This document shows positions 1-22,180 of a stretch of DNA of 28,543 nt, in pieces; position 1 is the stretch's first letter, and every line of letters begins with the position of its first letter. The notes beneath the pieces were generated by a model that worked only from the letters and a program-made list of their open reading frames with translations, had not been told where the DNA came from and searched no databases. Origin of the DNA: a virus; IMG/VR virus record IMGVR_UViG_3300025098_000215, positions 1 to 28,543 of that record; one strand, given 5' to 3'. Made by a program: the position numbers and the translations under genes.

Positions 1-343
1 ATAAAGTATTATCTGAACTGTCAAAAGTATTTATAACTCTAAATTTTGCAGTTGCGTTTGTAGAAGTACCACCACCATATAACTGAAATGATGCTCTTAT
101 CATAATAAGAATTTTACTTGATGTTGCGCTAGGTGTTATTTGTGCAGTTATGTTTGAATCTGCAAATGAACTAGATGTTGTATTAAGAACAGATGATGTA
201 CTTGCATGAACTACTTGACCAATCTTACCTGTATCAATACCACTAGGCAAAGCACTAACACTATTTAAAGAAGCGTTGTTAATAGATGTGTTTGGTATTG
301 TTAATCCCGTGATTGAGGGTGCTGTTAATCTTGTGATTGCCAT
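1..343 (-). CDS. Tail fibre-like protein, C-terminus beyond window
   Basis: Partial gene running off the left edge. It starts MAITRLTAPSITGLTIPN, then has the motif GKIGQVVHAS and later ITPSATSSKILI. The same two motifs occur in the next gene upstream (343-966: GKIGQVIQT and ITPSATSSKVLI), so the two are paralogues. The ATG overlaps the stop of that gene as TAATG, which supports this start and suggests coupled translation. The motif set is common in marine-phage fibre or virion-surface proteins of unknown structure. A receptor-binding role is inferred from position and family style only. Confidence 0.8.
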   Translation of the reverse strand, partial: MAITRLTAPSITGLTIPNTSINNASLNSVSALPSGIDTGKIGQVVHASTSSVLNTTSSSFADSNITAQITPSATSSKILIMIRASFQLYGGGTSTNATAKFRVINTFDSSDNTL

Positions 344-966
344 TATGCTAGTACCTCCATTAGTGTCATAGTTGATATGGTTCTATGATTAGCAGCATTA
401 TCAATATTTTCACCTTCACTGTTTAATTTAAAAGTTTGACCACTATTTAATGTTATTTGTAATTTGTAAGTTATTTCTGAAGTAGTTGAAGGACTGTCTA
501 AAAATTGAACTGCACTATTAGTAGCTTTTTGGAAAACATTATTAGAAGTAAAAACAGTTCCTCTTGTTCTACTACCAGCAGCATCACCCAATCCAATAGC
601 TGTGGTTCCTCTTAATATTCTTGAAGCACTATATATATTACTTGTGCCACCATAATTAATTGAACAGTTTATAAGAACTTTACTACTTGTTGCTGAAGGT
701 GTAATAGTTGCATTAAAACTAGTAAGGTCAACATATGTACCACTAGATGATGTTATTTGTTTTATGTCTGGTATAACAGTTTGGATTACTTGACCAATCT
801 TACCACCACCAAAACCTGTAGCAGTTCCGTTATTTGTTATAGTAGCACCCGATGGAATTGATATAGTATCACCACTTGCACCAACAGTAATAGTACCAGA
901 ACTCTCATTAATAATATTATCACCAGAGGTGTTTTGAATATTGTCTACTTTAATAATTGATGTCAT
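343..966 (-). CDS. Tail fibre-like protein with GKIGQV/ITPSATSSK module
   Basis: 207 residues. The N-terminus (MTSIIKVDNIQNTSG) matches the start of the next two genes upstream (ILKVNTIQ, TLEVNTIA) and is followed by a Gly/Thr/Ser-rich linker. From about residue 52 the protein switches to the GKIGQV...ITPSATSSKVLI module shared with the left-edge gene. It therefore looks like a common attachment head joined to an exchangeable distal domain. It is separated from the upstream gene by one base (TAACATG). A virion-surface or receptor-binding role is inferred; no enzymatic motif is seen. Confidence 0.8.
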   Translation of the reverse strand: MTSIIKVDNIQNTSGDNIINESSGTITVGASGDTISIPSGATITNNGTATGFGGGKIGQVIQTVIPDIKQITSSSGTYVDLTSFNATITPSATSSKVLINCSINYGGTSNIYSASRILRGTTAIGLGDAAGSRTRGTVFTSNNVFQKATNSAVQFLDSPSTTSEITYKLQITLNSGQTFKLNSEGENIDNAANHRTISTMTLMEVLA

Positions 967-967
967 G

Positions 968-1504
968 TTATGCTCCTATTACCCTATATGCTCCGAAATA
1001 AGTTCCCTTATCATTACATTCAAATTTTTCTCCACTACCACCATGTGCTTCTACATATCCAAAAATTTCTAGGTAATCAGATGTTCCGTTCATATCAATA
1101 GTATTTGAAATACTTGTTGCTCGTTCTAAGGCGGTTGATGTGTTAAAAACACTACCTGTAAACATATATGCAGAACCGTTTTTATAAATATAAAGTCTAA
1201 CTGAATATAAGTTATAATCACCAGTGCCTAAATTAACATTACTATAAACAAAATACTTACCAGCTACTGTTGGAGTAAATCTATAATTAGTAGAGTTATC
1301 GTAGTTAGTATTAGTATCAAATCTTTCTGTATTAAATTGAACTTTTGTTATAGTTGCATGGCTAATACTTTGGTCGGCTGACAAATACGCTTCAAAAGCA
1401 GGAGTATTAGATGCAAAACTCTGTGTTAAATTTCCAGAACCATCGCTAGAGATAATGGCGTTGCCCCCTCTATCCTGTATTGTATTAACTTTTAATATGC
1501 TCAT
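968..1504 (-). CDS. C1q-like tail fibre protein
   Basis: 178 residues. It starts with the shared anchor MSILKVNTIQ. From about residue 35 a beta-rich domain begins with TPAFEAYLS and continues through DNSTNYRFTPTVAGKYFVY, the pattern of C1q/TNF-like jelly-roll domains that trimerise at fibre tips. The downstream half of the 1505-2074 gene is clearly homologous (DNSTNYRFTP, VAGKYF). The stop TAA of this gene lies just before the next ATG. It is probably a receptor-binding tip protein; the C1q assignment rests on motif resemblance. Confidence 0.8.
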   Translation of the reverse strand: MSILKVNTIQDRGGNAIISSDGSGNLTQSFASNTPAFEAYLSADQSISHATITKVQFNTERFDTNTNYDNSTNYRFTPTVAGKYFVYSNVNLGTGDYNLYSVRLYIYKNGSAYMFTGSVFNTSTALERATSISNTIDMNGTSDYLEIFGYVEAHGGSGEKFECNDKGTYFGAYRVIGA

Positions 1505-2074
1505 CTATGCTCCTATTAGTTTATATGCCATAAATCTTGTTTCATCTTGACCAGGTTGTATTTGTGAAGTGTCGCTAGTTCCTTTAACATGATATATATA
1601 CAACTCTATATAATCTGATGAGCCATTCATTTCTATAATACCTGATACAGAAGGTGACATAGTATAGCCAATACCATCAGTTCTATAATCCCATAATTGA
1701 CCTAAAACTGTACTACCATTCTTTTTAATTCTAGTAATACCTTGATACATATTACTTGGGTTAAGACCATTTATAGTTACTTGACCATAACAAAAATACT
1801 TACCAGCTACTTGTGGTGTAAAACGATAATTAGTTGAATTGTCATAATCATTATCTGTATCAAATACTTCAGTATTAATATTTACTTTTACTTCTGTAGA
1901 ATCACTGATACCTGTTTGAGTAGAACCAAGATGAGCCATAAAAGCAGGAGTATTAGTTCCACCAAATCCACTCTGTGTAGCACCACTCCCTAGTGTTACT
2001 GTATCTCCATTACCACCAATCGTAACTGTTGTTCCTGATTGAGGGGCTATTGTATTTACTTCTAATGTACTCAT
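1505..2074 (-). CDS. C1q-like tail fibre protein, paralogue
   Basis: 189 residues. The anchor MSTLEVNTIAPQSG is followed by a Gly/Thr linker, then a C1q-like domain from about residue 43 (TPAFMAHLG) with DNSTNYRFTPQVAGKYFCY. It is a tandem paralogue of the neighbouring 178-residue protein; their loops differ while core strands are kept, as expected of duplicated receptor-binding tips. The genes abut (TAG then ATG). The ATG at 2074 has AGGAA about 7 nt upstream. Base composition is very AT-rich here, unlike the next gene upstream. Confidence 0.8.
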   Translation of the reverse strand: MSTLEVNTIAPQSGTTVTIGGNGDTVTLGSGATQSGFGGTNTPAFMAHLGSTQTGISDSTEVKVNINTEVFDTDNDYDNSTNYRFTPQVAGKYFCYGQVTINGLNPSNMYQGITRIKKNGSTVLGQLWDYRTDGIGYTMSPSVSGIIEMNGSSDYIELYIYHVKGTSDTSQIQPGQDETRFMAYKLIGA

Positions 2075-2086
2075 AATTTATTCCTA

Positions 2087-2542
2087 CTATACTATCACAA
2101 AAGTACTACCAGATGGAATGGTTAAAGTTCCGCTGACAGTAATTGGTCCTGCGGCTGAAGCGTTCTTGCTTGCACCAATTGTTATGTTGTTAAATGTCTG
2201 CGCGTTTTGCGAGATGAATGTGGAGCTCAATGATGCTTGCCCTACGGTTGCATCCGTTGGAGTTCCGATATCAAATACATTTCCTAACAGCACGCCGCTA
2301 AACGTATCGGTCGCAAGGGGGGCACTGGTGAATGTAATCGTGTTGCCGCTAACAGTGTACGCCGTATTTGGGTACTGGACAACGCCTGAAATGCTGATGA
2401 TTAAAGACTGCTCTGTCTCTACAGAAATATTCTGCGAGCCAGACTGTAAAGTGAAACTTGTTAAGGTACCGTTGAATGATCCTGAGATATCATCTATGAG
2501 TTGATATGCGCCAGTCTGTGGTACTCTACCTATGTATGCCAT
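2087..2542 (-). CDS. Tail fibre-like protein, GC-anomalous
   Basis: 151 residues beginning MAYIGRVPQTGAYQLIDDIS. The first ~90 residues resemble the N-terminal domain of the 4057-4707 protein (MSYIGNQPAEKYTTF): an xYIG start, then a beta-rich unit in which a variable loop follows INNV/ISGVVQ and Y. The C-terminal part is a short Gly/Ser/Thr beta-helix-like tail (ITIGASKNASAAG). It is probably a short fibre or a fibre base to which other subunits attach. GC content is near 50% over the gene, counted by eye on four lines, against roughly 30% on either side, so recent acquisition is likely. Its start overlaps the preceding stop as TAATG. Confidence 0.75.
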   Translation of the reverse strand: MAYIGRVPQTGAYQLIDDISGSFNGTLTSFTLQSGSQNISVETEQSLIISISGVVQYPNTAYTVSGNTITFTSAPLATDTFSGVLLGNVFDIGTPTDATVGQASLSSTFISQNAQTFNNITIGASKNASAAGPITVSGTLTIPSGSTFVIV

Positions 2543-2856
2543 TATTTTAATACCTCTGTTGGAAATTCGTATGCTTCTATTTTTTCTACAGTATCTAGTC
2601 CTGTTGTAGCATCACGAAGTTGTTGTCTATAAGTTGTCATAGCATCAGACATTGTTAAATCACTACTGCTAGTCCAATCTGTTTTGGCTAATAAATTGTT
2701 TCTTTTCTCTCTAAGACTGTTTAATGCTCTATCAAGTTCTGAAGGTATAGCATCTAAATCTTTTTTTCTTTGTGCTATTTCTTCTGATGTCATATCTACC
2801 AATACTCCTTTAGGATTCTCTGGCGATACTACAAATTTTTTATTTTCGTTTGTCAT
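2542..2856 (-). CDS. Tail-fibre assembly chaperone-like protein
   Basis: 104 residues. The central segment (LREKRNNLLAKTDW, residues ~48-61) and the following YRQQLRD are the signature of phage tail-fibre assembly/XkdW-type proteins, which help fold or attach fibres. The tail ends with FPTEVLK. It lies between two fibre-type genes and overlaps both by TAATG junctions. A second protein with the same signature is at 3446-4057. The chaperone role is inferred from the motif and from location. Confidence 0.65.
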   Translation of the reverse strand: MTNENKKFVVSPENPKGVLVDMTSEEIAQRKKDLDAIPSELDRALNSLREKRNNLLAKTDWTSSSDLTMSDAMTTYRQQLRDATTGLDTVEKIEAYEFPTEVLK

Positions 2857-3446
2857 TATTTTATCCCATATATTCTAAATTCAGACCTTGAATTAAAATT
2901 ACCTGAATAGTTTAAAAACCTTATACCAGTCACTGATGTCGCTGAATCAAGAGTTGTACCCATAAAGACAGTATTAAAACCACTAGCATTATCTTGAGCG
3001 TGAAATACTGTGTCACATACTGTTTTTTCACTAGCAAATGGATTATAGACAAACATTTTTACACTAGGCTCTGCTACATTTAAAGAGACTTTACCATGAT
3101 GAATTGATGTTCCACCCCAATTACCAATACTACTTACACCAGAGCCTCCAATTTCCATTCTTCCATTAAGACCTGCATTATAATAATTTGATGTTGTAAT
3201 TTCATTATTAGAAGAATCTTGAAATCTAAAACTTACAGTACCTGTTGCAGATAAATTATAACTAGCTAATACTAAATAAAATTTATAAGTGCTTGTAAAA
3301 CACCCATTAAATACTTGTGTTGCTGTACCACCGCCTGTAGCACTAGCAACTTGAACCATATCGTTTGGTGTTCCAGTAACAGTACCTGTAAAGTCATAAG
3401 TATCTGCAAGATTCATACTCTCTGCTTGTATTTTAGATATAGCCAT
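2856..3446 (-). CDS. Virion surface/tail fibre-like protein (MAISKIQAES type)
   Basis: 196 residues starting MAISKIQAESMNLADTYDFTGTVTGT, a start seen on many marine-phage tail proteins. The rest is a beta-rich domain (VSFRFQDSSNNEITTSNYYN, FRIYGIK at the C-terminus) without catalytic motifs. It has TAATG overlaps on both sides, so it is translated in a chain with the assembly-type proteins at 2542-2856 and 3446-4057. Probably a fibre tip or adhesin; precise role unknown. Confidence 0.7.
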   Translation of the reverse strand: MAISKIQAESMNLADTYDFTGTVTGTPNDMVQVASATGGGTATQVFNGCFTSTYKFYLVLASYNLSATGTVSFRFQDSSNNEITTSNYYNAGLNGRMEIGGSGVSSIGNWGGTSIHHGKVSLNVAEPSVKMFVYNPFASEKTVCDTVFHAQDNASGFNTVFMGTTLDSATSVTGIRFLNYSGNFNSRSEFRIYGIK

Positions 3447-4057
3447 TATTCGATCTCCTTTGGAAACTCACCAAGTGGTCTAGTAAAAGTTTCATCTTCT
3501 TGTTCTGTGTATTCGTATAAAGTTTTCAGTGCATCTACATCTGCTACCGCATTGATCTTTGTTTCCATATCATTAGATGCTGTACGAACTGCAGCTCTGT
3601 ATGTAGAGATATCTGTAGGTACAGAATACTCTGCAACTTCTGCTGCTTTAACTACATGCCAATCTGTTGGCGCTAATAAGCCTGCAGCTTGTTGTTTAAT
3701 AATAGAAATCTTTTGTTCTTTTAATCCATACTGTTTGATATCACCCACGACTCTATCAGAAGGAATCTCATCTTCTTCAGTAAATAAAATATTAGTTAAA
3801 GGTTTAGCGGTAGAAGTACCGTAAGAACCAGTAACAGTCCCACCGTTAAAAGCGTATGTGATGTTCGTATTAATGTAATACGCTTCATCCTTTTTGTTTT
3901 CCGAATTAACATTGATCTCATAAAGTCCTATCGCATTCCTTTCTGCTTCAGTCCATAATGTGAAAATTGTTTTAGGATATTGTACACCGTTAAGTTCAAT
4001 CCCTTTGCTAGAAGATACTGTCTTAACGAATTGATTATTTTCTACTAGAGCAAACAT
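3446..4057 (-). CDS. Tail-fibre assembly-type protein, longer paralogue
   Basis: 203 residues. The N-terminal half (MFALVENNQFVKTVSSSKGIELNGVQYP) looks like a small beta domain, found in front of assembly domains in other marine phages. The C-terminal half carries QAAGLLAPTDWHVV and later YRAAVRTASNDME, the TDW...YR signature also present in the 2542-2856 protein. It follows the fibre gene at 4057-4707 with a TAATG overlap, the usual fibre-then-chaperone order. Function is inferred from the motif. Confidence 0.65.
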   Translation of the reverse strand: MFALVENNQFVKTVSSSKGIELNGVQYPKTIFTLWTEAERNAIGLYEINVNSENKKDEAYYINTNITYAFNGGTVTGSYGTSTAKPLTNILFTEEDEIPSDRVVGDIKQYGLKEQKISIIKQQAAGLLAPTDWHVVKAAEVAEYSVPTDISTYRAAVRTASNDMETKINAVADVDALKTLYEYTEQEDETFTRPLGEFPKEIE

Positions 4058-4707
4058 TAGCTTACGTTGACGCTCCTTCCTACTTCATATAAATTTGTAC
4101 CATCGCTTCTAAATACTAGAATATCTTTTGCGGCAGCTGCCGTACTTAATGTAGGAGCTATCCCGTTAGTAAACTTGTATACAGTATTGAAGCTAAGAGT
4201 TCTAGATCCTGTACCATCTTGAATAATCATTAGACCATAAAAGCCTCCAGCATTTTGATTGGTTGGAGCCGCTAGTGTTCTGTTACCACCTAGAGTTACT
4301 TTAGCTACTTGTTGTGTTTCTAAGTTCCAACTGATCGTTGCTCCATCAGTTAATGTTGCTTCAGCTACATATAGTTGTGTTGGAAATTCAAATGATGTGT
4401 TACTGTTAAACATGTTAGCAGTAATACTGTTAGCACCTGGTGTAATTGTTTGCACTGCTTTACCAATAAATACGCAATACATTGTATCAGTTCCAGCAGT
4501 TGCTGCTGATAACACTAGGTTAGTTCCGTCTGCTGTATAAGCATAAGATGACCCAGGTTCTTGGCGCACGTTATTGATGAAAAGAGCAATCTCGTTTTCA
4601 TTTGCTACAGGGTGATCAAGCGTATATGTAGTTGTAGCACTAGTTGTAAAGTGCTGAACAGAGAAGGTTGTATACTTCTCGGCTGGTTGATTCCCTATAT
4701 AACTCAA
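4057..4707 (-). CDS. Tail fibre protein, xYIG N-terminal type (TTG start)
   Basis: 216 residues. The N-terminal ~105 residues (SYIGNQPAEKYTTF, LFINNVRQEPGSSY) form the domain widely found at the base of marine-phage fibres. A second beta-rich part follows (NRTLAAPTNQNAGGFYGLMI, ~140-160). The start is TTG at 4707: there is no in-frame ATG at this end, and AAGGAG lies 7 nt upstream. It resembles 2087-2542 in its first domain. Likely a structural fibre. Confidence 0.75.
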   Translation of the reverse strand: MSYIGNQPAEKYTTFSVQHFTTSATTTYTLDHPVANENEIALFINNVRQEPGSSYAYTADGTNLVLSAATAGTDTMYCVFIGKAVQTITPGANSITANMFNSNTSFEFPTQLYVAEATLTDGATISWNLETQQVAKVTLGGNRTLAAPTNQNAGGFYGLMIIQDGTGSRTLSFNTVYKFTNGIAPTLSTAAAAKDILVFRSDGTNLYEVGRSVNVS

Positions 4708-4717
4708 TTCTTACTCC

Positions 4718-5044
4718 TTATGTTGATATATCATCTACTGCTGAAACCCATACGTCAGCTGAAGATGCTGTATCAGAAATTACTTTTAATGCATCGCCCG
4801 ATTGGACTACGAATTTCGCGCCACCGTCTAATACCTGCAAAGATGAACCTGCAGGAATCGGCGCATCTTTGACCAAGTAAATATCATTACTTGCATCATT
4901 AATATATACATCTACGTTAATAGCGCTAGATGTAATATTTGCGACTGAGATTCCAACTACAGTATCATATGAGTTTGCAGTAAAGAGGGTAGCTGCGGAA
5001 GTTCCTACCGCGTTAGAAGTATATCTTCTAAAATTTTGTGCCAT
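4718..5044 (-). CDS. Small virion structural protein
   Basis: 108 residues, MAQNFRRYTSNAVGTSAATLFTAN. It is beta-rich with a central VDVYINDASNDIYLVKDAPIPAGSS, an immunoglobulin-like or cupin-like strand pattern. Proteins of this kind sit among tail genes in marine phages, but their role is not established. The ATG at 5044 has AAGGAG/AAGGA upstream. Only 10 bases separate its stop from the next gene. Confidence 0.75.
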   Translation of the reverse strand: MAQNFRRYTSNAVGTSAATLFTANSYDTVVGISVANITSSAINVDVYINDASNDIYLVKDAPIPAGSSLQVLDGGAKFVVQSGDALKVISDTASSADVWVSAVDDIST

Positions 5045-5055
5045 TCCTTACTCCT

Positions 5056-5556
5056 TTATAATGCAATCGCCATTGCGATTACGAATCCACTTGATGGAAC
5101 AGTTGTTAAATCTGTACCATTTACTGTTGTAACTTGGAGGTCAGCTAATGCATTAGCTACATTAGTACCATCCGAATAAACAAACGCGTCACGCCCAGCA
5201 GGTACAGTAAATGTTGTACCACTACCAGTTGTTAGGATTATGTCATTACTATCTGCTGTATTGTTCAGCACCATGTACACTGTTTCTAGTGCAGGTATGG
5301 TAACCGTACAAGTGCCCCCTGGTGAACCTCCGAAGTTAAGGACAAAGTTTCTTCCATCTTCGTCAGTGTAAGAAGTGGGGTCAGTAGTAAATGTTAATGT
5401 GTGTGTTGTACCTGATAATGAAACAGAAGCATAACCTGTAATCTTGTTCTCAAGACGTTTTAAGTTATCATTCGTTTGATCTCCCCAGGTGTTATCGTTC
5501 TCACCTGTGGTCATTAAACGTAAGTTTAAACCACCGTTACTCCAGGTAGATGCCAT
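5056..5556 (-). CDS. Tail fibre-like structural protein
   Basis: 166 residues. It starts MASTWSNGGLNLRLMTTGEN followed by DNTWGDQTNDNLKRLE, a beginning typical of phage fibre proteins whose first ~40 residues dock onto the tail. The remainder is Thr/Gly-rich beta structure (TTGSGTTFTVPAGRDAFVYSD). The start is fixed by the TAATG overlap with the upstream gene. Function is inferred. Confidence 0.75.
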   Translation of the reverse strand: MASTWSNGGLNLRLMTTGENDNTWGDQTNDNLKRLENKITGYASVSLSGTTHTLTFTTDPTSYTDEDGRNFVLNFGGSPGGTCTVTIPALETVYMVLNNTADSNDIILTTGSGTTFTVPAGRDAFVYSDGTNVANALADLQVTTVNGTDLTTVPSSGFVIAMAIAL

Positions 5557-6011
5557 TAACTAATCCTTATAATTGCGTTACTTGCGTCTGCTGTTGGAAA
5601 CTCAATGGTAAATGTACCATTAGAAACCGAATAATCTGCTCCGAAATCTAACACCATTAAGGCTGAGTTAGAATCGTCTGTGTTATAAATTATACAACCT
5701 CTTGTAGTAAATGTAGCACTTGACCATGATGTATTAGCAAAATCACAAACTGCTGTTGATCCATCTAATGTAGGAGTTACACTTACTAAAGTGTTACCAC
5801 CTGTAGTATATCCACTACCATTAGCTAGCTCATCACTGTTTCCAGTTACGTCTGTGTAATTTGTGGTCGAGGCGCCATAAGTACCGCTTTGGGCTGATTC
5901 AGCTTTAATCAGAGCAATCTTAAAAGTATTACCTGAACCATTAGTTAGGTCGTGTTTACTTTGTAAAATCTCTTGTTTAAAGCTATTACATATTGCTGAT
6001 GTAATTGCCAT
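5556..6011 (-). CDS. Tail-associated structural protein
   Basis: 151 residues, MAITSAICNSFKQEILQSKHD. The N-terminal helix precedes a beta-rich body with a KIALIKA strand and a CIIYNTDDSNSALMVLDFG strand. The family is common in marine phages next to connector genes; its function is not established. Three bases separate it from the upstream adaptor gene, and its stop overlaps the next ATG (TAATG). Confidence 0.75.
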   Translation of the reverse strand: MAITSAICNSFKQEILQSKHDLTNGSGNTFKIALIKAESAQSGTYGASTTNYTDVTGNSDELANGSGYTTGGNTLVSVTPTLDGSTAVCDFANTSWSSATFTTRGCIIYNTDDSNSALMVLDFGADYSVSNGTFTIEFPTADASNAIIRIS

Positions 6012-6014
6012 GCT

Positions 6015-6704
6015 TTATTGTCCTCTCTGCATTGTTCTTAGTTCACCATTACGAAACTCATCATTTCGCATTCTTACTTGTTCCTCATTCGCCAATGTTT
6101 GGATTGCTCGATTGTAATAACCTTGCCATAGTTCTATTACTTGAGGTGTCTCTTTCATATATCCTATAGCTTCAATCAGTGTACCGTATAGTATGGCGTC
6201 TGGGGCATTATCACCTAGATAAGTGTTTTGATTGCTTGGTGATAACCCTGGAACTCTAATAGTATACCCTATTTCTACTGTTGTTGCAAGGGCTGGAGTT
6301 GGTCCAAACAAGAAATTAGTTTGTCGATTTCCACTTGTATATGTTGTTCCAGTTTGATTTAAGGCATAGTATTTAACTGTGCCCGTACTCGACGGATTCT
6401 TATTGTACTCTTTGATAAATGATTCATCTTTATCTAATAAGAAATCTCCATTCAGAATCCTTAAGTATCTTGGTATAACCATGTCAGAAGGTACTGCTAC
6501 TGTTGCCGTGCCCCCTGTCAAGGATAGTGTTGAAATTTTTCTGAAGGCAGTAAGGTCTGTCTCTTTTGCTATACGTAATTCAGCTAATTCAATACACAAA
6601 TCAATAGGAGCTTTACCGCTACCTGTTGCTGTTGTAAAAGATACGGCTGAATTTTCTAGCCAATCTTGCACGTTTTGTTTAAGTTGATTATATGTTAATC
6701 CCAT
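6015..6704 (-). CDS. Head-tail adaptor/tail tubular-like protein
   Basis: 229 residues. The N-terminal helices (LTYNQLKQNVQDWLEN, LCIELAELRIAKETD) and the C-terminal segment with APDAILYGTLIEAIGY match the general pattern of podovirus adaptor proteins that sit under the portal. A longer frame from a TTG at 6716 exists, but the ATG at 6704 overlaps the preceding stop as TAATG and has GGGG 7 nt upstream, so it is preferred. The assignment to the adaptor role is moderate. Confidence 0.7.
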   Translation of the reverse strand: MGLTYNQLKQNVQDWLENSAVSFTTATGSGKAPIDLCIELAELRIAKETDLTAFRKISTLSLTGGTATVAVPSDMVIPRYLRILNGDFLLDKDESFIKEYNKNPSSTGTVKYYALNQTGTTYTSGNRQTNFLFGPTPALATTVEIGYTIRVPGLSPSNQNTYLGDNAPDAILYGTLIEAIGYMKETPQVIELWQGYYNRAIQTLANEEQVRMRNDEFRNGELRTMQRGQ

Positions 6705-7546
6705 TATGTACCCCAAGCATTAGCACCCCAGGAATCTGCACCCCATCCTGTGTTGTCTATTGCAATTGATATTGTACCAAATCCTGTTGAAAGTTGCAAC
6801 CCGTTCACGTCTTCTCCTGTATTAATTGTTGGAGTACCGATGCCAGTTGCAGCTGATTGATTTGGTGATGTTATTGTAGAACTGGATTGGAATGTTAGAG
6901 AGCCTATGCCAGATGTTAATTCTTGACCAGCAGGTACTTCAGTACCACTAAAATTTAATCCTGCAGCTCCGTGCTCTGAAGCTAAAGATTGCCCTGTTGG
7001 ATCAGCGGTTGAGCTAGCACTAAATGTTGGACTACCTTTTGCTGTAGTCGCTGACTGACCAACCACGTTTTCTTGCGCACTGAAACTAAATGAACCGAGT
7101 GCTGTTTGTAATAATTGTGAATCCGCATCCTCTGCAGTATTGATAGTCACGGAACCACGTGTAGAAGATAGTGCTTCACCGATAAGTGTGTAACCTGTGG
7201 CAATTGTTGGGATGCTAAAAGCAGTTTGCATTATTAAAGAATCTGCTTCTTCTCTAACTGCGATACTTATAGATCCAAATGCTACTTGTGCTGGTGGTGA
7301 ATACCCAGAACCATAGATACCAAAACGTACTGTTGTAGGTACGTTGTCACTATCAGGTCTAGGATTTTCTAATGATGTTGCTTCGGGTCCGAGCTTAGGT
7401 GGTGTGAGTTGCGGGTGTTTGGGCTCCCAATCTTTTTTGTAAACTCGAAGCCCATTCCACTCTGTTCGCGCATCTTTGTATCGTATCTTCCTGCCAGAAC
7501 GATCGTCTATCAGATATGCATATTTACCTGAAGCTCTTTTAGCCAT
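6704..7546 (-). CDS. Repetitive virion structural protein
   Basis: 280 residues. The first ~75 are basic and Trp-containing (KYAYLIDDRSGRKIRYKD, EWNGLRVYKKDWEPKHPQ). From about residue 90 onward the chain is made of roughly 24-30 residue units beginning with G-S/T-hydrophobic (FGSISIA, RGSVTINT, LGSFSFSA, KGSPTFSA, IGSLTFQS, IGTPTINT, FGTISIA). The last residues are WGADSWGANAWGT. The repeats suggest a regular beta structure. It lies between the two adaptor-like proteins, so it is probably part of the neck or tail; role unknown. Confidence 0.7.
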   Translation of the reverse strand: MAKRASGKYAYLIDDRSGRKIRYKDARTEWNGLRVYKKDWEPKHPQLTPPKLGPEATSLENPRPDSDNVPTTVRFGIYGSGYSPPAQVAFGSISIAVREEADSLIMQTAFSIPTIATGYTLIGEALSSTRGSVTINTAEDADSQLLQTALGSFSFSAQENVVGQSATTAKGSPTFSASSTADPTGQSLASEHGAAGLNFSGTEVPAGQELTSGIGSLTFQSSSTITSPNQSAATGIGTPTINTGEDVNGLQLSTGFGTISIAIDNTGWGADSWGANAWGT

Positions 7547-7551
7547 CGCCC

Positions 7552-8265
7552 TTAGTACCCGCGAATCTTAGGTTGAATATAAAAACTTGCTCTTTCTCTA
7601 TCCTCTTCTTTTGCAAACTGCCACTCTTCCACATAAATAGATTTCAATTCACCACGTCTAGCGGCATCTACTTTAGCAGGATTTTTATTAGCTATTTCAA
7701 AAGCTAGCCCACTAATTAATGCTGGTAAATATCTTCTAGGGATATCTGGGTTTTGTGTATATGTATCTGTTACATCTTGCGGATATCTAATAGTCCAGCA
7801 AAGTAATTGATAATATGTTTGATCAGGTACAGGAAATAAATATCCTGTGTGAGATGCTACGCCTGAGGAATCATACTGGCTGTTACGTTCAACTGCATAT
7901 TGAACAGGCTTGCCTTTTGTAGATTTGTTTGGGTAGTTTAAATATTCAGATAAACTGATTCTTTCACAAGCTGTATCTGTTGAAGGTGTGCTGTTAGTGT
8001 CACGTACACTAGCATCTAATATATCAAGATATTGATTTGAACCAATAGAGAATGTAGATTGATTTTGTGTAAGATTAATTGTTGTTAAATCAAGAGTGAA
8101 TAAATTCACGCCTTCATTAACCCATTTAGTCAGAAGTAAGTTGAGCGAACGTCTAGCTGTTACTAAGTCGTAACCCGACTTGAGTTCTAATCCGACGCGC
8201 TCGTGCGCCTCTTGTATTATTTCAGCTATGTCAAGGCTGAACGTGTATGTGCCAGAAGTTGCCAC
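7552..8265 (-). CDS. Tail tubular/head-tail connector-like protein (GTG start)
   Basis: 237 residues. The segment DIAEIIQEAHERVGLELKSGYDLVTARRSLNLLL (described by its ends: residues ~12-45) and the later RRYLPALISGLAFEIANKNP are typical of podovirus tail tubular A/gp4-like connector proteins that bind the portal. The start is GTG at 8265, preceded by AAGGGGGG. The gene sits five bases before the next one. Connector function is a moderate-confidence family inference. Confidence 0.72.
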   Translation of the reverse strand: MATSGTYTFSLDIAEIIQEAHERVGLELKSGYDLVTARRSLNLLLTKWVNEGVNLFTLDLTTINLTQNQSTFSIGSNQYLDILDASVRDTNSTPSTDTACERISLSEYLNYPNKSTKGKPVQYAVERNSQYDSSGVASHTGYLFPVPDQTYYQLLCWTIRYPQDVTDTYTQNPDIPRRYLPALISGLAFEIANKNPAKVDAARRGELKSIYVEEWQFAKEEDRERASFYIQPKIRGY

Positions 8266-8929: not shown

Positions 8930-9838
8930 TTAAGCACCTTGGTTTCCGTAGACACTTCTCCAGTCAGACCAACCGAAGCTGTATCTTTCTCTGGCTTTGT
9001 ATCGTACATTACCTGTTTCAAAGTCACCTTCCATCTTAGTATTCATAGCTGCTCTGTTGAACATTTTGATACCGTTAGGAGCATCAGTTCTAATGAAGAA
9101 TGCATCAGTGTCTGTGAATCTGTGGTTCACATAGTATCCACCAGGAAGCATACCCATAGAGTTGATAGCATTGATATCATTGTCAGCAGTTGCTACTCTG
9201 TTTGGAGATTTCATTAATCTCTCGGCAACAAATACTAATTGTCTTGGGATGTGTAAGGTTCTACCTTGAATTGCAGCTGGCACACCTTTGTCATCTGTTA
9301 GACCAGCAATATCAATTAATGCTGTTTCTAATGATGTCTCAGATAAGTCAGCGTAAGTAGCAGGTCTGTTAGAACCTGAACCGCCGTTTTGTAATGGGTG
9401 TGCATTAGAAATTAATGGTTGCCCATCACCGCCTGTGTATGAACCGCTGAATGCGTTGTTATACACGTTAGCTGCAGTAAGTTGCTTAGCAGAAGCCATC
9501 GCTCTTGCTAAAGCTTTAGTTAGTCTGGTTGACAACTTATCATATAAGTTATCTTCCATAGCTTCCTCAGTTAATGAGAATGCTAATGCTACAGTTTTGT
9601 GAGTGTATCGTGATACATATCCTTCACCTGAATCGGCGTAAGATACTGGTGCACCTTCGAACTTCTCACCTGCATTACCAAAGCCTGGGAAGAGTACTTC
9701 TTCTTCGAAAGCTCTGTTTGATGTTTCCTCATCGAACAAGACGGCGTGCTCATTTTCGTACCTATTGTATTCAGTACCAAAAATCGCATTAAGACCTGGC
9801 TCAAGTTCTTTAAGGATTTGTGCTCTTGATATAGCCAT
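8930..9838 (-). CDS. Major capsid protein, HK97-fold (Mu gpT-like)
   Basis: 302 residues. It starts MAISRAQILKELEPGLNAIFG, continues with an E-loop-like region (FEEEVLFPGFGNAGEK), a helix rich in Ala (LTKALARAMASAKQLTAANV, ~107-126), and ends with GNVRYKARERYSFGWSDWRS. These are the hallmarks of the Mu gpT-type/HK97-fold capsid family; the N-terminal sequence and the RYSFG(W/F)SD end are well conserved there. No protease is recognised nearby. A scaffold gene precedes it by two genes, and AGGAGG lies upstream of the ATG. Hairpins follow the stop. Confidence 0.93.
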   Translation of the reverse strand: MAISRAQILKELEPGLNAIFGTEYNRYENEHAVLFDEETSNRAFEEEVLFPGFGNAGEKFEGAPVSYADSGEGYVSRYTHKTVALAFSLTEEAMEDNLYDKLSTRLTKALARAMASAKQLTAANVYNNAFSGSYTGGDGQPLISNAHPLQNGGSGSNRPATYADLSETSLETALIDIAGLTDDKGVPAAIQGRTLHIPRQLVFVAERLMKSPNRVATADNDINAINSMGMLPGGYYVNHRFTDTDAFFIRTDAPNGIKMFNRAAMNTKMEGDFETGNVRYKARERYSFGWSDWRSVYGNQGA

Positions 9839-12033: not shown

Positions 12034-12363
12034 TTATCTGTGTTTTATTTTATCTGGCTCTGGTACGATTGCCACTACTTCATCATCATTGATGATAGAA
12101 TAGTCTTCGTTTTCATACTTGAACTTTAGTCCAACGTACTTTCCTGTAAGCACATAGTCTCCTACTTTACACCATGTTGTTTCTGATTTGTCCATATTCT
12201 TATAACACTCTGGACCCATCTCAATTACTTGAGATACCACGCAAGCAAACTTTGCTAGCTCTCTGGTTTGGTCAGATAATAAGATTCCACCTGATGTTGA
12301 TATTGGCGGTTCCCATGGTTTCAGTAACATACGGTAGCCTTGCGGCTTTGGTAGTTTATTCAT
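12034..12363 (-). CDS. GroES-like co-chaperonin
   Basis: 109 residues from the chosen start. Cpn10 features are PQGYRMLLKP at the N-terminus, a mobile-loop segment STSGGILLSDQ (~18-28), CVVSQVIEMGPECY, VGDYVLTGKYVG and EVVAIVP. It would cap the host GroEL to fold the capsid protein, as T4 gp31 and other phage GroES proteins do. An in-frame TTG at 12378 and ATG at 12366 are also possible, but GGAGG is best spaced from the ATG at 12363. Its start overlaps the preceding gene. Confidence 0.85.
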   Translation of the reverse strand: MNKLPKPQGYRMLLKPWEPPISTSGGILLSDQTRELAKFACVVSQVIEMGPECYKNMDKSETTWCKVGDYVLTGKYVGLKFKYENEDYSIINDDEVVAIVPEPDKIKHR

Positions 12364-12574
12364 CATTACCTCCTGCAATGTCTTTGTACAATTTCTTGTA
12401 CTCCGTTTCTAGTCTATCAGACATATCGTTTAGTGTCTGACCTATACCTACAAGAAATCTGTAGGCTGCGTAGTCATCAGCTGATCCACTAAGGAGTTGC
12501 TGATTATTGGCAGCAATTGCTTCTGCCAAAACTTTTTGCATACGTTCTTTATAATTCTTAACTTGATCTAACAT
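12356..12574 (-). CDS. Small helical protein, hypothetical
   Basis: 72 residues, MLDQVKNYKERMQKVLAEAIAANN, then YAAYRFLVGIGQTLNDMSDRLETEY. It is wholly helical, soluble and rich in charged residues, similar to small proteins often seen next to phage head genes. It lies between Hsp20 and GroES and its last bases overlap the GroES start. Role unknown. Confidence 0.7.
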   Translation of the reverse strand: MLDQVKNYKERMQKVLAEAIAANNQQLLSGSADDYAAYRFLVGIGQTLNDMSDRLETEYKKLYKDIAGGNDE

Positions 12575-12630: not shown

Positions 12631-13029
12631 TTACTTAATGTTAATAATCTTTTCCTTCTTTTCTTCAGGAATTATTTTTTTAAGTTTAACACAAAGCAGC
12701 CCATCTTGCAACCCTGCATCTTCAACTACAAAGTCATCTGCCAATTGGAACTTCTTAGTAAAGTTCTTTTCAGATATACCCTTGTGTATTATTTGATTGG
12801 GTTCTTGATTGTCTTTCTTTTTACCCGTGATGGTTAAAGTATTTTCTGCATACTTTACTGTCACATCATCTTTGGTAAAACCAGCCACAGCCATTTCGAT
12901 CTCATAGTTTTCAGAGTCTACTTTCTTAATGTTATATGGTGGGAATGATGTATACTTGAATGAGTCCATTCTACTGAACAGGTCATCAAATCCTATCCAA
13001 AATGGATTGTATTGTTCTAGGCTTGTCAT
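12631..13029 (-). CDS. Hsp20 family small heat-shock protein
   Basis: 132 residues. The alpha-crystallin domain is evident: YEIEMAVAGFTKDDVTVK (~43-60), ITGKKKDNQEP, ISEKNFTKKFQLADDFVVED and GLLCVKLKKIIPEEKK. It would hold unfolded proteins until refolding. A TTG-started extension to 13047 exists, but the ATG at 13029 has AAAGGAGG about 7 nt upstream and is preferred. A consensus-like promoter (13083-13112) ends within its leader, so it is probably the first gene of a chaperone block. Confidence 0.9.
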   Translation of the reverse strand: MTSLEQYNPFWIGFDDLFSRMDSFKYTSFPPYNIKKVDSENYEIEMAVAGFTKDDVTVKYAENTLTITGKKKDNQEPNQIIHKGISEKNFTKKFQLADDFVVEDAGLQDGLLCVKLKKIIPEEKKEKIINIK

Positions 13030-13082
13030 AATATACCTCCTTTGCAAGCGAAGTTAATTAGCCCCTTACGGCAGCTATGTAT

Positions 13083-15778: not shown

Positions 15779-18169
15779 CTATCGGGCTGTTACAGGTACT
15801 CCGCCTGATGTTACAAATGGGTTTTCTGCAAATGCCATGTAGATATATGTTTCTCCAGTTACATTAAATTTAGCACCACTTTCAGAGTCTTCTCTAAGCT
15901 TAAATCCATTACTTAAAAATTCTAATCTCATATCACCCTCTGGGTCATAAGTATTAGGCTCTAAATAATCAAGTTGTGAATTACTTGCATTGTGAATTCT
16001 TTTGTCATCAAGTATCATCCAATCGGTTGCACTAGTAATATTTTTATACATTACCCATTTAGTAGAAAAGCCTGTGTGAATAAATGGACCATCCAAACTT
16101 GAATTGCCTGAAAACTTGCCAAATTTAGAGTAGCCTTCTATTTCTGCGAAACAGTAGGCAACATAGGTAGTTCCATTTGAATTACTATCTCCTGCATACC
16201 CAACCGCAAAGGTACTTGAGCCAACTGAACTAGGGTGATTATCTCCCCAAGTTGCATTGTTCACATCATCAGCTTGAGCAGAGGTACTGTTTAATTTTAT
16301 TTCACTTCCTGCGGTTAAATCTTTGTGATAAACCATCCAATCCTCTACACTACTACGACCTTTTAAAATTATCATAGCAGGTGCTTTGCCTAGTCCATGA
16401 CCTATAGTGGAATTATCAGAGCCATTTCCTGTATAAGTAACAATACTAAATCCTGCAGTTTGATTAGCTGATACTGTAGATGTGATTGAGCCATCAGTGT
16501 TAGAAACTGCATTAGAATCTGAGCCTCTCCAATTCCAACCAACATAAGTACGACCAGACATATTAACATTACCACTTTCATAGCCACTATAAGTACCAGG
16601 CGTTAAAGTAAATCCATCTGAATTAAAAGATGATACATAGCCAAATTGGGGATTTGTTTGTTCAGCACCACTTTCATGAGTTTGAAGTTGTTTACCATTT
16701 CCTCTAACACTGTCATAAACAACTTGACCGCCAGATGAATTACGATTTTTAATCCAAACCCAATCAGGTGAAAATCCGACACCTGTAAAACTTCTTGTCG
16801 TATTATCTCCACTCCAAGTTAAGGTATTAAAATATTGACTTGCATCATCAATCGTAGGGGGTGATTCAGTTGCTAGGTTTTGAGTACATAGTGCTAGATA
16901 GCCAGAGGGTGGTGCGTATTCAAAGTTTCCATATCCGTTATCGTCACTGTTGCCAGATGAGATTGAGAATGGTGGGTTGCCATAATTACCAGATTGACCA
17001 CTACTACCACTATTTATATATCCATGACAACCAATAAGCCATGTAGTGTTTGTATCTAATCCTGTAAAAGCAGTTCCTTGAGAAGCACCATTTTTATAAA
17101 ATGCTAATGTTCCATTATCTGCGTCAAGAGCAATACCAATAATATCACCTGTTGTATAACTCGCACCATAAGAACTAGCTGAGCCTTTGTTATTTTTATT
17201 ACCATTACTCTGATAATAAATTGCTTGGGTGTCTGGGTTGCCATTGTCATATGCTAATGGCTCTAAAATTCCACAAGAAGTAGCAGTGCCTACATTATCT
17301 ACTTTTATTTCTGCGTACCATTTACCACTAAATACACCTTGTGTTGAATAAGCTATTCCATTAGAAGCACCTTGTACTACTTTGCAATTTCCTTCTGAAA
17401 AAGTAGGATTGACTGATGTTCTTTTAAATAATGAATTAAAAGTAGCAAAGTTATTAGTCGGTGTATCTGTTGTAATATCTGTTGGTCCAGATAAATTCGT
17501 TGGAGAAAATGTATTATCATTACCTGAACTATCTTCACCTATATTACCTGTGTTGTTAAACTTTAAATAAAAACCATTCGTGCCATACGTTCCTGTGTAT
17601 TCGATTGGTTTCCATATACCACTATCTTCATCAAATTCACCAAAGTCTGTAGGTGCTTTTGCAGTTCCGTCTATAAAGTGTACCTCTGCCATGTAGCCAT
17701 CAAAATACCCACCAGTTGTATTGGAGTATCTACCCATTACCATTTCATTTGTGTTGTTAATAGCACCATTACCACTAATTGACTTGGAACTGCGTTCAAC
17801 ACTATTTACATATAATTTTAAAGTTGATGTATTCGCTTGTAAAACCACATGATACCAAGCTGATGGGTCTCTAAAAAGTGCAGATGAAATGGTAGGTGAT
17901 GAGGGAGTGTTCCAATAAGAATAAAATTGACCATTAATTAAGGCAAGTCCTGTTCCGTCTTGTCCTGCACTCCAACCACCTGCAGTGAAAATATTAAGAG
18001 TCCCTAAAGGATTTATTTTTAACCAAGCACTCCAAGTCCAAACTGCTCTATTCCCTGCACTTGATGGAGTTCTTTGTAAAGATGGTCCATCATCATCATT
18101 AAATCTTAGGGAATTATCAATGCTAAAAGCACCTCCTGGTATATTTGATCCGACAATAGGAAATGTCAT
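15779..18169 (-). CDS. LamG/SPRY-domain virion surface protein
   Basis: 796 residues. The N-terminal ~190 residues form a LamG/concanavalin-like domain (WTWSAWLKIN, WYHVVLQANTSTLKLYVNS, MVMGRYSN). About 255-425 is a SPRY-like domain (GKWYAEIKVD, GDIIGIALDADNGTLAFYKNG). The last third has three tandem units of the kind GFSPDWVWIKNR...VVYDS, each ending in an aromatic strand (YVGWNWRG, YVAYCFAE, YIYMAFAE). It is probably a carbohydrate- or receptor-binding fibre/decoration, placed unusually between portal and scaffold. AGGAG precedes the TAATG start. Confidence 0.85.
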   Translation of the reverse strand: MTFPIVGSNIPGGAFSIDNSLRFNDDDGPSLQRTPSSAGNRAVWTWSAWLKINPLGTLNIFTAGGWSAGQDGTGLALINGQFYSYWNTPSSPTISSALFRDPSAWYHVVLQANTSTLKLYVNSVERSSKSISGNGAINNTNEMVMGRYSNTTGGYFDGYMAEVHFIDGTAKAPTDFGEFDEDSGIWKPIEYTGTYGTNGFYLKFNNTGNIGEDSSGNDNTFSPTNLSGPTDITTDTPTNNFATFNSLFKRTSVNPTFSEGNCKVVQGASNGIAYSTQGVFSGKWYAEIKVDNVGTATSCGILEPLAYDNGNPDTQAIYYQSNGNKNNKGSASSYGASYTTGDIIGIALDADNGTLAFYKNGASQGTAFTGLDTNTTWLIGCHGYINSGSSGQSGNYGNPPFSISSGNSDDNGYGNFEYAPPSGYLALCTQNLATESPPTIDDASQYFNTLTWSGDNTTRSFTGVGFSPDWVWIKNRNSSGGQVVYDSVRGNGKQLQTHESGAEQTNPQFGYVSSFNSDGFTLTPGTYSGYESGNVNMSGRTYVGWNWRGSDSNAVSNTDGSITSTVSANQTAGFSIVTYTGNGSDNSTIGHGLGKAPAMIILKGRSSVEDWMVYHKDLTAGSEIKLNSTSAQADDVNNATWGDNHPSSVGSSTFAVGYAGDSNSNGTTYVAYCFAEIEGYSKFGKFSGNSSLDGPFIHTGFSTKWVMYKNITSATDWMILDDKRIHNASNSQLDYLEPNTYDPEGDMRLEFLSNGFKLREDSESGAKFNVTGETYIYMAFAENPFVTSGGVPVTAR

Positions 18170-20602: not shown

Positions 20603-22180
20603 TTAATAATAACGTCTGCGTTTTCTATTATACACTGATGACTCGTCTAAGTCAAGCCATGAATTATCACTATGTTCTAAGTACCCGCCATTACGTACAT
20701 ATAGCACTGCTTGTGTAACAGAGTCTACAATATCGTCATGAGGTCCCGATGGGAACTGGCGACACTCTTCAATAGTTTCTTTTGCCCACACTTTATCTAG
20801 TGGTGCGTAGATTCTTGCGTTATGAAACAAAGAACTGATAGCATATGCGCGTGATACTTTGTCTCGATCAGGTTGATACTCTTGTATAGGTAAACCTGCT
20901 AGTCTTAGGTCTTGAATTAACGATTGACCCGAAGCTTTTTTCTCAATCACTATGGAATCTGGCTTATGTTTCATAAATTTGTCCACAGCTTTCTGTCTTA
21001 GTGTAGGAAAATCCCAGCGACCCTTCTCCATTCCTAGCAATACCATGTTTGCCATGCTAAGTTCGTCCTTTTTAAAGACACCCCACGTAGTAATTACAGA
21101 ATAGTCTGCAGTTGTGCGGGTAGAGAACGCTGTATCCCAGGATTGTATGATAAAATCACACTCAGGAGGGTCTTCACTGCTCCAATCTTGCCAATAATCT
21201 ACTTGAATGATGCCCCCTGTCTCAGATGATGGGCTTTGTAGGTACAATGCGTCAAATTTAAACGGGGGTGTGTTGTTCTTTGTACGAATAATGTCCTCCG
21301 TTGACCAGCAAAATCCATTTTCGCGATCAGGTGCCCCCCAGAAAGACTCACCAAGCTTAGGTTCAGGGTACGTTTCTGATAAATACCCCTGTTCAATTAG
21401 AGAGTTTCTAGCTTTTGTTAGTTGTTCTGAAGATTCTGCAGTATTTAGCGCAGGTATTCGTACAACATTCCACTTATCTGCTAGGGGTGAAGCCTCTTGC
21501 TGCTTTAACAAGTGACCTGCTAAGTCATTTTCGTGCCACCTTGTCATCACCAGCACAACTTTTCCACCTGGCATTAGTCGTGTTCGTAAACCAGAAGCAT
21601 ACCATTCGTTTAATTGTTCACGCCTTGTCTTAGAATAAGCATCTTGCTCAGAGATTGGGTCATCAATAACTGCTAAGTGCGCACCAAAACCAGCGATACC
21701 TGAGCCAGAACCTGCAGCTAAGAAACTTCCTGCTACTTTGCCGCCTTCTTCTAGTGCCCAAGAGTTTGCTGCGCGATTATCTTTTTTAATTTTTACTTTA
21801 GGGAATATAGTGTTGTAGGCTGTGGTATTAATAATATCACGAATAGCTCTACCAAACTTAGTAGCTAAGTCATCTGAGTGAGATACTGCAATTTCCTGCC
21901 AATAAGGATTACGACCCAGCGCCCAAGCTGGAAAGTATGTTGAAGTAATAAGCGACTTAGATGAACGCGGAGATACAAATACCATTAGACGGTCAGTATC
22001 GCCTTGTTCTAATTTCATTAACTCATCGCATAACAGTCTATGGTGAGGTCCCACATTGAAGCTAGGGTTCATCAGCATTACAAATGCTAGTAAGTCATCA
22101 CGCGCTTGTTTGACTGCTAGCCTAGTTGCTGCGTCTCTATCTTCTACTGTGGCTTGAGAATTATTCTGTGATGTAAGCAA
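20603..22180 (-). CDS. terL: Terminase large subunit
   Basis: 525 residues. ATPase: Walker-A-like SPRSSKS (70-76, a deviant P-loop), Walker B VIDDPI (171-176) and coupling motif TRWHEND (213-219). Nuclease (RNase H-like): SWDTAF (D349), VIEKKASG (E413) and HDDIVD (D483/D486). It packages DNA and cuts it. The only good start is TTG at 22180. Seven codons upstream of an in-frame TAG (22196-22198) an ATG with AGGA begins at 22219, so the true start deserves checking. 78 bases separate it from terS. Confidence 0.95.
   Translation of the reverse strand: MLTSQNNSQATVEDRDAATRLAVKQARDDLLAFVMLMNPSFNVGPHHRLLCDELMKLEQGDTDRLMVFVSPRSSKSLITSTYFPAWALGRNPYWQEIAVSHSDDLATKFGRAIRDIINTTAYNTIFPKVKIKKDNRAANSWALEEGGKVAGSFLAAGSGSGIAGFGAHLAVIDDPISEQDAYSKTRREQLNEWYASGLRTRLMPGGKVVLVMTRWHENDLAGHLLKQQEASPLADKWNVVRIPALNTAESSEQLTKARNSLIEQGYLSETYPEPKLGESFWGAPDRENGFCWSTEDIIRTKNNTPPFKFDALYLQSPSSETGGIIQVDYWQDWSSEDPPECDFIIQSWDTAFSTRTTADYSVITTWGVFKKDELSMANMVLLGMEKGRWDFPTLRQKAVDKFMKHKPDSIVIEKKASGQSLIQDLRLAGLPIQEYQPDRDKVSRAYAISSLFHNARIYAPLDKVWAKETIEECRQFPSGPHDDIVDSVTQAVLYVRNGGYLEHSDNSWLDLDESSVYNRKRRRYY

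Follow-up and report, generated by a model that had tools for sequence, protein, structure and literature searches.

The DNA analysed here, called the window, is an IMG/VR virus record of 28,543 nucleotides (28.5 kb; IMGVR_UViG_3300025098_000215, positions 1 to 28,543) with genes for terminase (20603-22180), portal (18169-20592) and major capsid protein (8930-9838). The left end of its minus-strand run of tail genes is an array of short tail-fibre-like and accessory genes, g10, g9 ... g1. Among relatives, the C-terminal modules (tips) of the fibre genes are exchanged for non-homologous or distant ones. Contig L082 (relatives are given by L numbers) is 99.9% identical to window positions 1-7034 and extends beyond the window edge; its copy completes g1, which there has 182 amino acids (aa) and is followed by two accessory genes. 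The four genes nearest the edge are composed of the following parts, with positions of the ribosome-binding sites counted from the sequence.

2-343, minus strand: g1, starts MAITRL, cut by the window edge
230-343, minus strand: g1 head, MAITRL type, residues 1-38
2-229, minus strand: g1 tip, GKIGQV/ITPSATSSK class, cut by the window edge (complete copy at L082 6692-7240)
212-229, minus strand: g1 junction motif G-K-I-G-Q-V, 18-base exact repeat
354-358, minus strand: g1 ribosome-binding site GGAGG, within the last g2 codons (L-M-E-V-L-A-stop)
343-966, minus strand: g2, starts MTSIIKVDNIQ
805-966, minus strand: g2 head, MTSIIKVDNIQ...GFGG, residues 1-54
343-804, minus strand: g2 tip, GKIGQV class, predicted TNF-like-lectin jelly roll
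787-804, minus strand: g2 junction motif G-K-I-G-Q-V, 18-base exact repeat
973-977, minus strand: g2 ribosome-binding site AGGAG, within the last g3 codons (I-G-A-stop)
968-1504, minus strand: g3, starts MSILKVNTIQ
1406-1504, minus strand: g3 head, MSILKVNTIQ, residues 1-33
968-1405, minus strand: g3 tip, predicted C1q fold
1510-1514, minus strand: g3 ribosome-binding site AGGAG, within the last g4 codons
1505-2074, minus strand: g4, starts MSTLEVNTIA
1952-2074, minus strand: g4 head, MSTLEVNTIA, residues 1-41
1505-1951, minus strand: g4 tip, C1q class by homology to g3

A preliminary description of this DNA had reported that three consecutive genes share their start, that one of them carries a GKIGQV/ITPSATSSK domain and two a C1q-like domain, and that the left-edge gene has the GKIGQV domain behind a different head. 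All of this was borne out: g2, g3 and g4 share the anchor (MTSIIKVDNIQ, MSILKVNTIQ, MSTLEVNTIA), the GKIGQV domain is on g2 and the C1q-like domains are on g3 and g4, and g1 starts with MAITRL. Since g1 and g7 (MAISKI) have heads of one type, and g5 and g9 begin with a third, MxYIG, the window contains at least three anchors. The exact DNA repeat described between the first two genes is also real, although the positions given for it (215 and 785) were off by 2-3 bases; its two 18-base copies lie at 212-229 and 787-804, at the head/tip joints of g1 and g2, where they encode G-K-I-G-Q-V. In 2.46 Mb of loci, which may include duplicate contigs, a 17-mer of this joint has 29 copies, 23 of them in sense orientation inside listed fibre-tip genes and six elsewhere, on the plus strand of the loci. 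The joint repeat of g1 and g2 is not a chance match.

Sequence and predicted structure place the four tips in two classes. The tips of g1 and g2 are 38% identical (E 1.5e-9), and g3 matches g4 over its full length (42% identity, E 7e-39). Both g2 (E 4e-15) and the complete L082 copy of the g1 tip (E 4e-8) match the tail fibre family phrog_6942; the only matches of g3 and g4 were phrog_13989 (virion structural protein) and phrog_15750 (function not annotated). The predicted model of g3 (predicted local distance difference test, pLDDT, 92) was best matched in the PDB by C1QL2 (TM 0.82 on target, E 9.7e-9), and a profile, A2, matches adiponectin and C1q chains; Pfam gave a sub-threshold TNF match for g3 and none for g4. 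The g3 tip is therefore predicted to have a C1q-like jelly-roll fold. In the g2 model (pLDDT 87), the tip was best matched by the C-terminal domain of Chlamydia Pgp3 (VIA Z 14.5), followed by the TNF-like lectins PLTL and BC2L-C (VIA Z 13.1 and 12.5; these three matches cover 120-138 residues at a root-mean-square deviation of 2.1-2.8), with C1q domains near Z 10, so that the tip classes of the window would be related jelly-roll folds. Going by their entry titles, the PLTL and BC2L-C structures were solved with blood-group sugars. The sequence profile of the g2 family also matches a solved 658-residue chain named orf22 (9efk, E 1e-28).

Relatives were collected in five scans of viral contigs, using the major capsid protein, g3, g2, g11 and the joint motif; in two of the scans the best 80 of 599 and the best 80 of 106 were taken. 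Most loci are metagenome fragments and all were chosen by similarity, so every count below describes loci retrieved in this way and not the ocean at large. Profiles were built for five tip classes (GKIGQV, C1Q, WRIS, INGDM and YDNY); profiles and gene set were drawn from the loci of the first four scans plus the first named records, and 482 distinct genes with head and tip were obtained. The WRIS profile fused with C1Q at the fourth iteration, so that both probably belong to a single superfamily and a switch from one to the other should be discounted as a class change. Of 163 dereplicated tips in the GKIGQV class, just 49 have the exact G-K-I-G-Q.

Comparison of the relatives indicated that heads belong to slots, that is, to places in the gene row. 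The window relatives L129, L237 and L092 (the last cut in its fourth slot) have the same heads in the same order, MSTLEVN - MSILKVN - MTS(I/L)IKVD - MA(I/L)(T/I)RL, with other tips. In the window and L092, C1q tips fill both the MSTLEVN and the MSILKVN slot. L129 has GKIGQV in the former and an unclassified domain in the latter, and L237 has WRIS and GKIGQV, respectively. A second lineage (L249, L252-L264) behaves in the same way with different slot heads, and a third, lineage C (about 27 loci among L097-L156), has seven slots. Behind the head MASILKVNTIQ, 27 distinct tips (at most 90% aa identity) were found in 27 genes, and behind MASELHVD 24 in 26 genes. Tips thus do change behind kept heads, as the preliminary description had proposed for a constant head, but the head is constant per slot; it is neither one common anchor nor frozen.

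Replacement of tips was quantified in gene pairs with matching heads (first 60 nucleotides, nt, at least 85% identical). Of 1435 such pairs, 341 had tips of another class, and in 976 of the 1094 same-class pairs the tips were less than 50% aa identical. Replacement was then related to the divergence of surrounding DNA in 88 loci; 372 pairs had a common block of 1.5 kb or more, and 263 of these pairs also had a slot in common (the pairs are non-independent, and the loose pattern used for slot A0, MA[ILF]S[KT]I, admits head identities as low as 0.61). At block identities of at least 97%, 22 of 82 slot comparisons gave a replaced tip and 60 a kept one (median head identity 1.00), a range in which keeping is favoured because the shared block can include the slots themselves. 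At 95-97%, 17 of 23 tips were replaced and none was kept at 90% aa (median head identity 0.88); the corresponding numbers were 93 of 96 at 90-95% (0.88), 168 of 184 at 80-90% (0.87) and 163 of 164 below 80% (0.79). For example, L249 and L254 are 96.5% identical over 4.2 kb and have heads of 0.75-0.93 nt identity, and their tip class differs in three of five slots; in L142 and L143, which share 98.9% identity across 7.5 kb, replacement has affected three of the six slots, all on the same side. The block-based count supersedes two other measures of core identity. One, from one to three short genes, overrated some pairs (L083/L087 scored 0.99, against 74.6% over 2.4 kb and 92.9% over one 0.6 kb block by blastn); the other used core patterns that were too strict, omitted lineage B and kept only 27 loci.

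The converse, like tips on unlike heads, was also found. Among 65 pairs with tips at least 80% nt identical, heads were less than 55% aa identical in 12; head identity was here divided by the shorter head, which is generous to heads, so that pairs such as L082/L158 are missed. A single tip (97.4% nt) was found on the heads MSTLEVNSIQ, MAIDKIQAES and MSSILRVDSIQ, and a C1q tip (93.5% nt) is on MGTVFVDN in L249 and on MSKILVDT in L254, having moved between slots. The g2 tip (L082 copy) has a 95.2% nt match on a MALIKIKSES head in L158 and 85-86% nt matches on MxYIG heads in L160 and L161. The domain shuffling proposed from the window alone was therefore supported: compared separately across relatives, head/tip combinations change within one lineage, and heads and tips are not always inherited together, unlike tips occurring on like heads and vice versa.

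Edges were inspected in eleven hand-picked pairs, namely eight of the 12 pairs with shared tips and unlike heads and three relatives of the g2 tip. At the left edge, 4-11 of the 15 bases directly upstream of the joint match, and 2-9 of the 15 before those; within the tip, 24-30 of the first 30 bases match. At the right edge, identity ends in nine of the eleven pairs at, or close to, the stop codon. For L008/L187 the match runs on through the next accessory gene at 14-15 of 15, and in L187/L203 it does so partly and more weakly.

Isolate genomes contain the same replacements. The complete genomes of MEP401 and MEP402, both recorded from one host strain (Methylophilales FZCC0133), share 92-96% identity over most of their flanks. 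MEP402 has a GKILQV tip in two slots, INADTS.GLKLTSDTSG and MADIVL.GDTSG; in MEP401 the first of these has a C1q tip and the second encodes a 336-residue protein lacking a recognised tip. In a third slot the INGDM class is kept (68% nt). HTVC115P, HTVC035P and HTVC203P, cultured on laboratory Pelagibacter strains, also have arrays of this kind. HTVC035P and HTVC203P have four slot heads in common (one block 100% identical over 83 nt, flank 74%), and their tips differ in all four slots (WRIS/C1Q, C1Q/C1Q, WRIS/YDNY and YDNY/GKIGQV). Heads kept and tips changed in isolate genomes mean that the shuffling is not only an assembly artefact. MEP402 and MEP401, which are our L411 and L412, have one recorded host strain and differ in at least two fibre tips; a tip change therefore need not change that host.

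Both edges of the GKIGQV module are biased in synonymous codon choice (interior columns z at most 3.4). At the right edge, the E of MEVLA is GAG in 134 of 158 tips, and in the IGA at the end of C1q tips, I is ATA in 72 of 79 and G is GGA in 91 of 109; C1q end columns reach z 6.8-18.1, with interior columns up to 4.1 and a weak left edge (up to 3.2). Read together, these codons give GGAGG or AGGAG, lying a few bases ahead of the following start codon; the window has such sites at g2/g1, g3/g2 and g4/g3. The ribosome-binding site of the next gene begins inside the tip open reading frame (ORF) in 110 of 136 GKIGQV, 131 of 161 C1Q, 16 of 23 WRIS and 29 of 36 INGDM genes, and in only 6 of 20 YDNY genes. 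As a control, some ribosome-binding site lies within 18 bases upstream of 1310 of 2200 other genes; mechanically called starts probably underrate this control, and the tip count accepts any of five short motifs. In four of the five tip classes, the coding end thus usually holds the ribosome-binding site of the next gene. Translation is a sufficient explanation of right-edge conservation, and a tip of most classes should be insertable without silencing the downstream slot.

The left edge was examined with a joint-motif scan that is blind to synonymous choice (99 stretches reported, 87 matches read in listed loci), giving 54 dereplicated tips of 56 after two without a tip motif were dropped, with tips treated as independent. 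The K codon is AAG in 34 of 54 joints and in 17 of 167 positions inside the same tips (Fisher p 6e-14), and the I codon is ATT in 48 of 54 joints compared with 192 of 376 inside tips (p 4e-8). Identical 15-mers at the joint are threefold over expectation (0.189 vs 0.058). Excess codon identity is found at G and I, K switches its preferred codon, and Q and V do neither. Head conservation was assessed in lineage C at four-fold degenerate sites, where heads C5 and C6 reach 0.963 and 0.975, against 0.66-0.70 in the adjacent constant gene; the C6 head peptide was one of the retrieval patterns for lineage C loci and the C5 head was not. Values for C1 (0.794), C3 (0.824) and C7 (0.864) are moderate, and C4 is without excess (0.556 vs 0.72; 0.783 vs 0.72 over all synonymous codons). 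In L082/L092, heads and joints are 88-97% identical compared with 75% in the flank. The GKIGQV joint and several heads are, by these codon comparisons, conserved at synonymous sites, as recombination handles would be. The idea that heads are uniformly more conserved than the core was rejected, as the core is mostly the more similar part when close pairs within lineages A and B are compared (the measure was ungapped and somewhat underrates heads).

Some tips appear to travel with an accessory gene, given that one family of follower genes is private to a class. Of 38 INGDM tips, 37 have a small gene behind them, and in 35 it is from a single family not found after any other class here. YDNY tips have a short gene from a broad accessory family behind them in 17 of 20, and members of this family also stand after 56 GKIGQV, 29 C1Q and 11 WRIS tips; another tip gene comes directly after a GKIGQV tip in 93 of 166 and after a C1q tip in 112 of 167. 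For INGDM and YDNY tips, gene order would suit a Tfa-type system, in which the chaperone gene stands after the tip it serves (g6 is a PF16778 member), and the travelling accessory is perhaps a chaperone. In L082, the accessory gene after the array (7624-7950) has an XkdW match (PF09636, E 9e-10), and both it and its neighbour (7266-7619) match phrog_9114.

The explanation that best accounts for these results, and that we regard as very probable, is an array of slot-specific heads with exchangeable whole tip modules. On this view the region is one end of a short tail-fibre gene array in which every gene has a slot-specific head and a tip module; tips of the C1q-fold and GKIGQV classes, and of further classes in relatives, are exchanged whole between slots and between phages, sometimes with the accessory gene behind, and heads mostly remain in their slots. 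Heads may dock on the tail and tips may be trimeric receptor binders. Exchange would most likely proceed by homologous recombination at short shared edges, of the single-strand-annealing type, followed by host-range selection; this route is favoured because of the position and DNA-level conservation of the edges, the annealing proteins in some relatives (HTVC100P carries an annotated one) and published relaxed recombination by phage recombinases (PMC2327257, PMC3945230). A more far-reaching version, about which we are closely divided and lean slightly to doubt, is a plug-in system: heads and GKIGQV joint, near-identical at synonymous sites, would serve as recombination handles, and tips would be expression-neutral cartridges circulating among slots, genomes and even phages with unrelated cores, four of the five classes supplying the ribosome-binding site of the next slot.

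Several observations weigh against this reading or its mechanism. Heads vary (0.64 nt, ungapped, in L082 vs L237, whose core identity is 0.92) and are sometimes exchanged themselves, and their conservation does not extend to all slots. Head and tip distances remain correlated in three of the seven lineage C slots, C2 to C4 (Mantel r 0.48, 0.17 and 0.39; the others are C1 0.02, C5 0.01, C6 0.07 and C7 -0.17, and two parts of an ordinary gene as a control gave 0.85; the p values of the core-head and core-tip comparisons, made on 15-22 pairs, should be disregarded). Of 18 fragmentary records, only two contained the annealing protein ERF and none contained RecT. Homogenisation of the joint within genomes was not found (identical in 7 of 26 vs 378 of 1804, p 0.28). 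Presence in the virion, docking by heads and binding by tips are what we infer. Finally, L231, which has another g7, also changes the head and the next genes and could be an assembly chimera. This contig is 99.1% identical to L082 for 3.56 kb, up to g8, and then, at 3546-4616, has head, tip, accessory and next gene like L160; it is either a recent exchange or an assembly chimera.

Chimeric assembly could in principle account for more than L231, heads and joints being the kind of repeat that misleads assemblers into jumping between co-occurring phages. The complete isolate genomes with swaps (MEP401/MEP402 and HTVC035P/HTVC203P) and the recurrence of combinations in separate contigs (L249/L253, L143/L144, L148/L149 and window/L082, possibly from related samples) make it very unlikely as the general cause. 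Equally improbable is very fast evolution of tips in place, under positive selection behind conserved heads: divergence alone would suit the many same-slot, same-class tips with their median of 34% aa identity, but not the 341 class differences among head-matched pairs, nor tips up to 97% nt identical, with sharp edges, on unrelated heads. A dedicated diversifier, such as a shufflon-type invertase or a diversity-generating retroelement, is suggested by a short joint conserved at the DNA level, which resembles a site-specific recombination site. Searches of 20 fragmentary records found no reverse transcriptase (PF00078, 0/20) and no tyrosine recombinase (PF00589, 0/20), serine recombinases and repeats not having been searched; none of the 29 copies of the 17-mer is on the minus strand outside tip genes, no inversion was seen, and tips differ over their whole length and in class. 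We give this explanation very little credence.

The alternative that deserves most weight concerns mechanism: head and joint conservation may stem from constraints on translation start or RNA, with exchange by illegitimate recombination and selection, without handles. We consider this quite possible, though we incline against it. The ribosome-binding site accounts for the right edge, synonymous head conservation is strong in C5, C6 and C7, weaker in C1 and C3 and absent in C4 at four-fold sites, and the lack of within-genome homogenisation points the same way. The preference for AAG in the left-edge K codon argues for handles, as no translation reason is evident there, and this argument is tempered by the K of the interior SSK(I) motif, which is AAA in 119 of 136.

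Earlier publications have described fibre-domain shuffling and variable C1q genes in marine phages. Domain mosaicism of phage receptor-binding proteins, with head conserved and tip exchanged, is well known (Smug et al. 2023, PMC10684548); relative to what the consulted parts of that study describe, the present case is an array of many small fibre genes with a head of its own in each slot and joints conserved at the DNA level. C1q-domain and tail-fibre genes are hypervariable in the metaviromic islands of marine phages (Mizuno et al. 2014, PMC3909814), a likeness that extends to Pelagiphage-like genomes; that work measured read recruitment, compared with the contig comparison used here, and its consulted parts do not describe slot heads, several tip classes per head, junction motifs or embedded ribosome-binding sites. 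The host recognition cluster of pelagimyophages, a hypervariable island with tail fibres in SAR11 phages (Zaragoza-Solas et al. 2020, PMC7029224), is larger and has other gene types, and head/tip modules are not described in the sections consulted. In Pectobacterium tailocins, the N-terminal half is conserved and the C-terminal fibre domain variable, and homologous recombination at conserved flanks was invoked (Pardeshi et al. 2026, PMC13195805, in the part consulted); the head/tip pattern is alike, and the present array differs in that no inversion was seen. By annotation, P-SSP7 has a row of short fibre genes after gp17, four with GKILQ-type tips of the GKIGQV class, but with other heads and in another phage family. 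The likeness of the tips to C1QL2, Chlamydia Pgp3, PLTL and BC2L-C is one of predicted fold only. No description of slot-specific heads, conserved joints and tip-borne ribosome-binding sites was found in the open-access literature searched; what appears new is the ribosome-binding site of the next gene in the tip end and the conservation of GKIGQV joint and several heads at synonymous sites. If the proposed explanation is true, most presumed host-recognition tips of some marine phages can turn over before the neighbouring genes are 5-10% divergent, with expression of the fibre row intact; host-range turnover in such phages could be counted slot by slot; and slot head, tip class and accessory gene would give an annotation rule for genes mostly listed as hypothetical.

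The rest of the fibre array in the window is composed as follows.

2087-2542, minus strand: g5, MxYIG head, without a recognised tip; conserved in L129, L092 and L237
2542-2856, minus strand: g6, tail fibre assembly chaperone-like; Phage_tail_APC PF16778 above cut-off, phrog_4912
2856-3446, minus strand: g7, MAISKI head and YDNY-class tip
3446-4057, minus strand: g8, fibre assembly-like accessory (phrog_4912, weak)
4057-4707, minus strand: g9, MxYIG head gene
4718-5044, minus strand: g10, conserved gene, upstream border of the fibre array

The place of g7 holds INGDM tips in L129, L232 and L237. The g5 protein matches the tail fibre family phrog_18673 (E 4e-46) and is a candidate adaptor. Together with the g4 head, g5 (L082 4491-5035) is 92.5% identical to L092 compared with 75% in the flank, so that an MxYIG gene without a recognised tip may move too.

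Named relatives of the window terminase are at most about 37% identical, the list being headed by phage 023Pt_psg01 and the Pelagibacter phages HTVC027P and HTVC023P (about 36% for the latter two, with several others similar). A provirus search with this terminase gave three matches in genome contigs, at 29-32% identity. With matches at these levels, a host was not assigned to the window.

Elsewhere in the window, an Hsp20 gene (PF00011, E 8e-19; 12631-13047) lies near a GroES-like Cpn10 gene (PF00166, E 3e-12; 12034-12378), upstream of the capsid gene. On the plus strand, adjoining genes at 24818-27003 weakly match Amidoligase_2, just over the cut-off, and class-II glutamine amidotransferase, under it. 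Beside the portal gene, positions 15779-18169 encode a 796-residue protein with LamG-like, SPRY and DUF7483 domains, which resembles virion structural and tail fiber families and is possibly a further large fibre.

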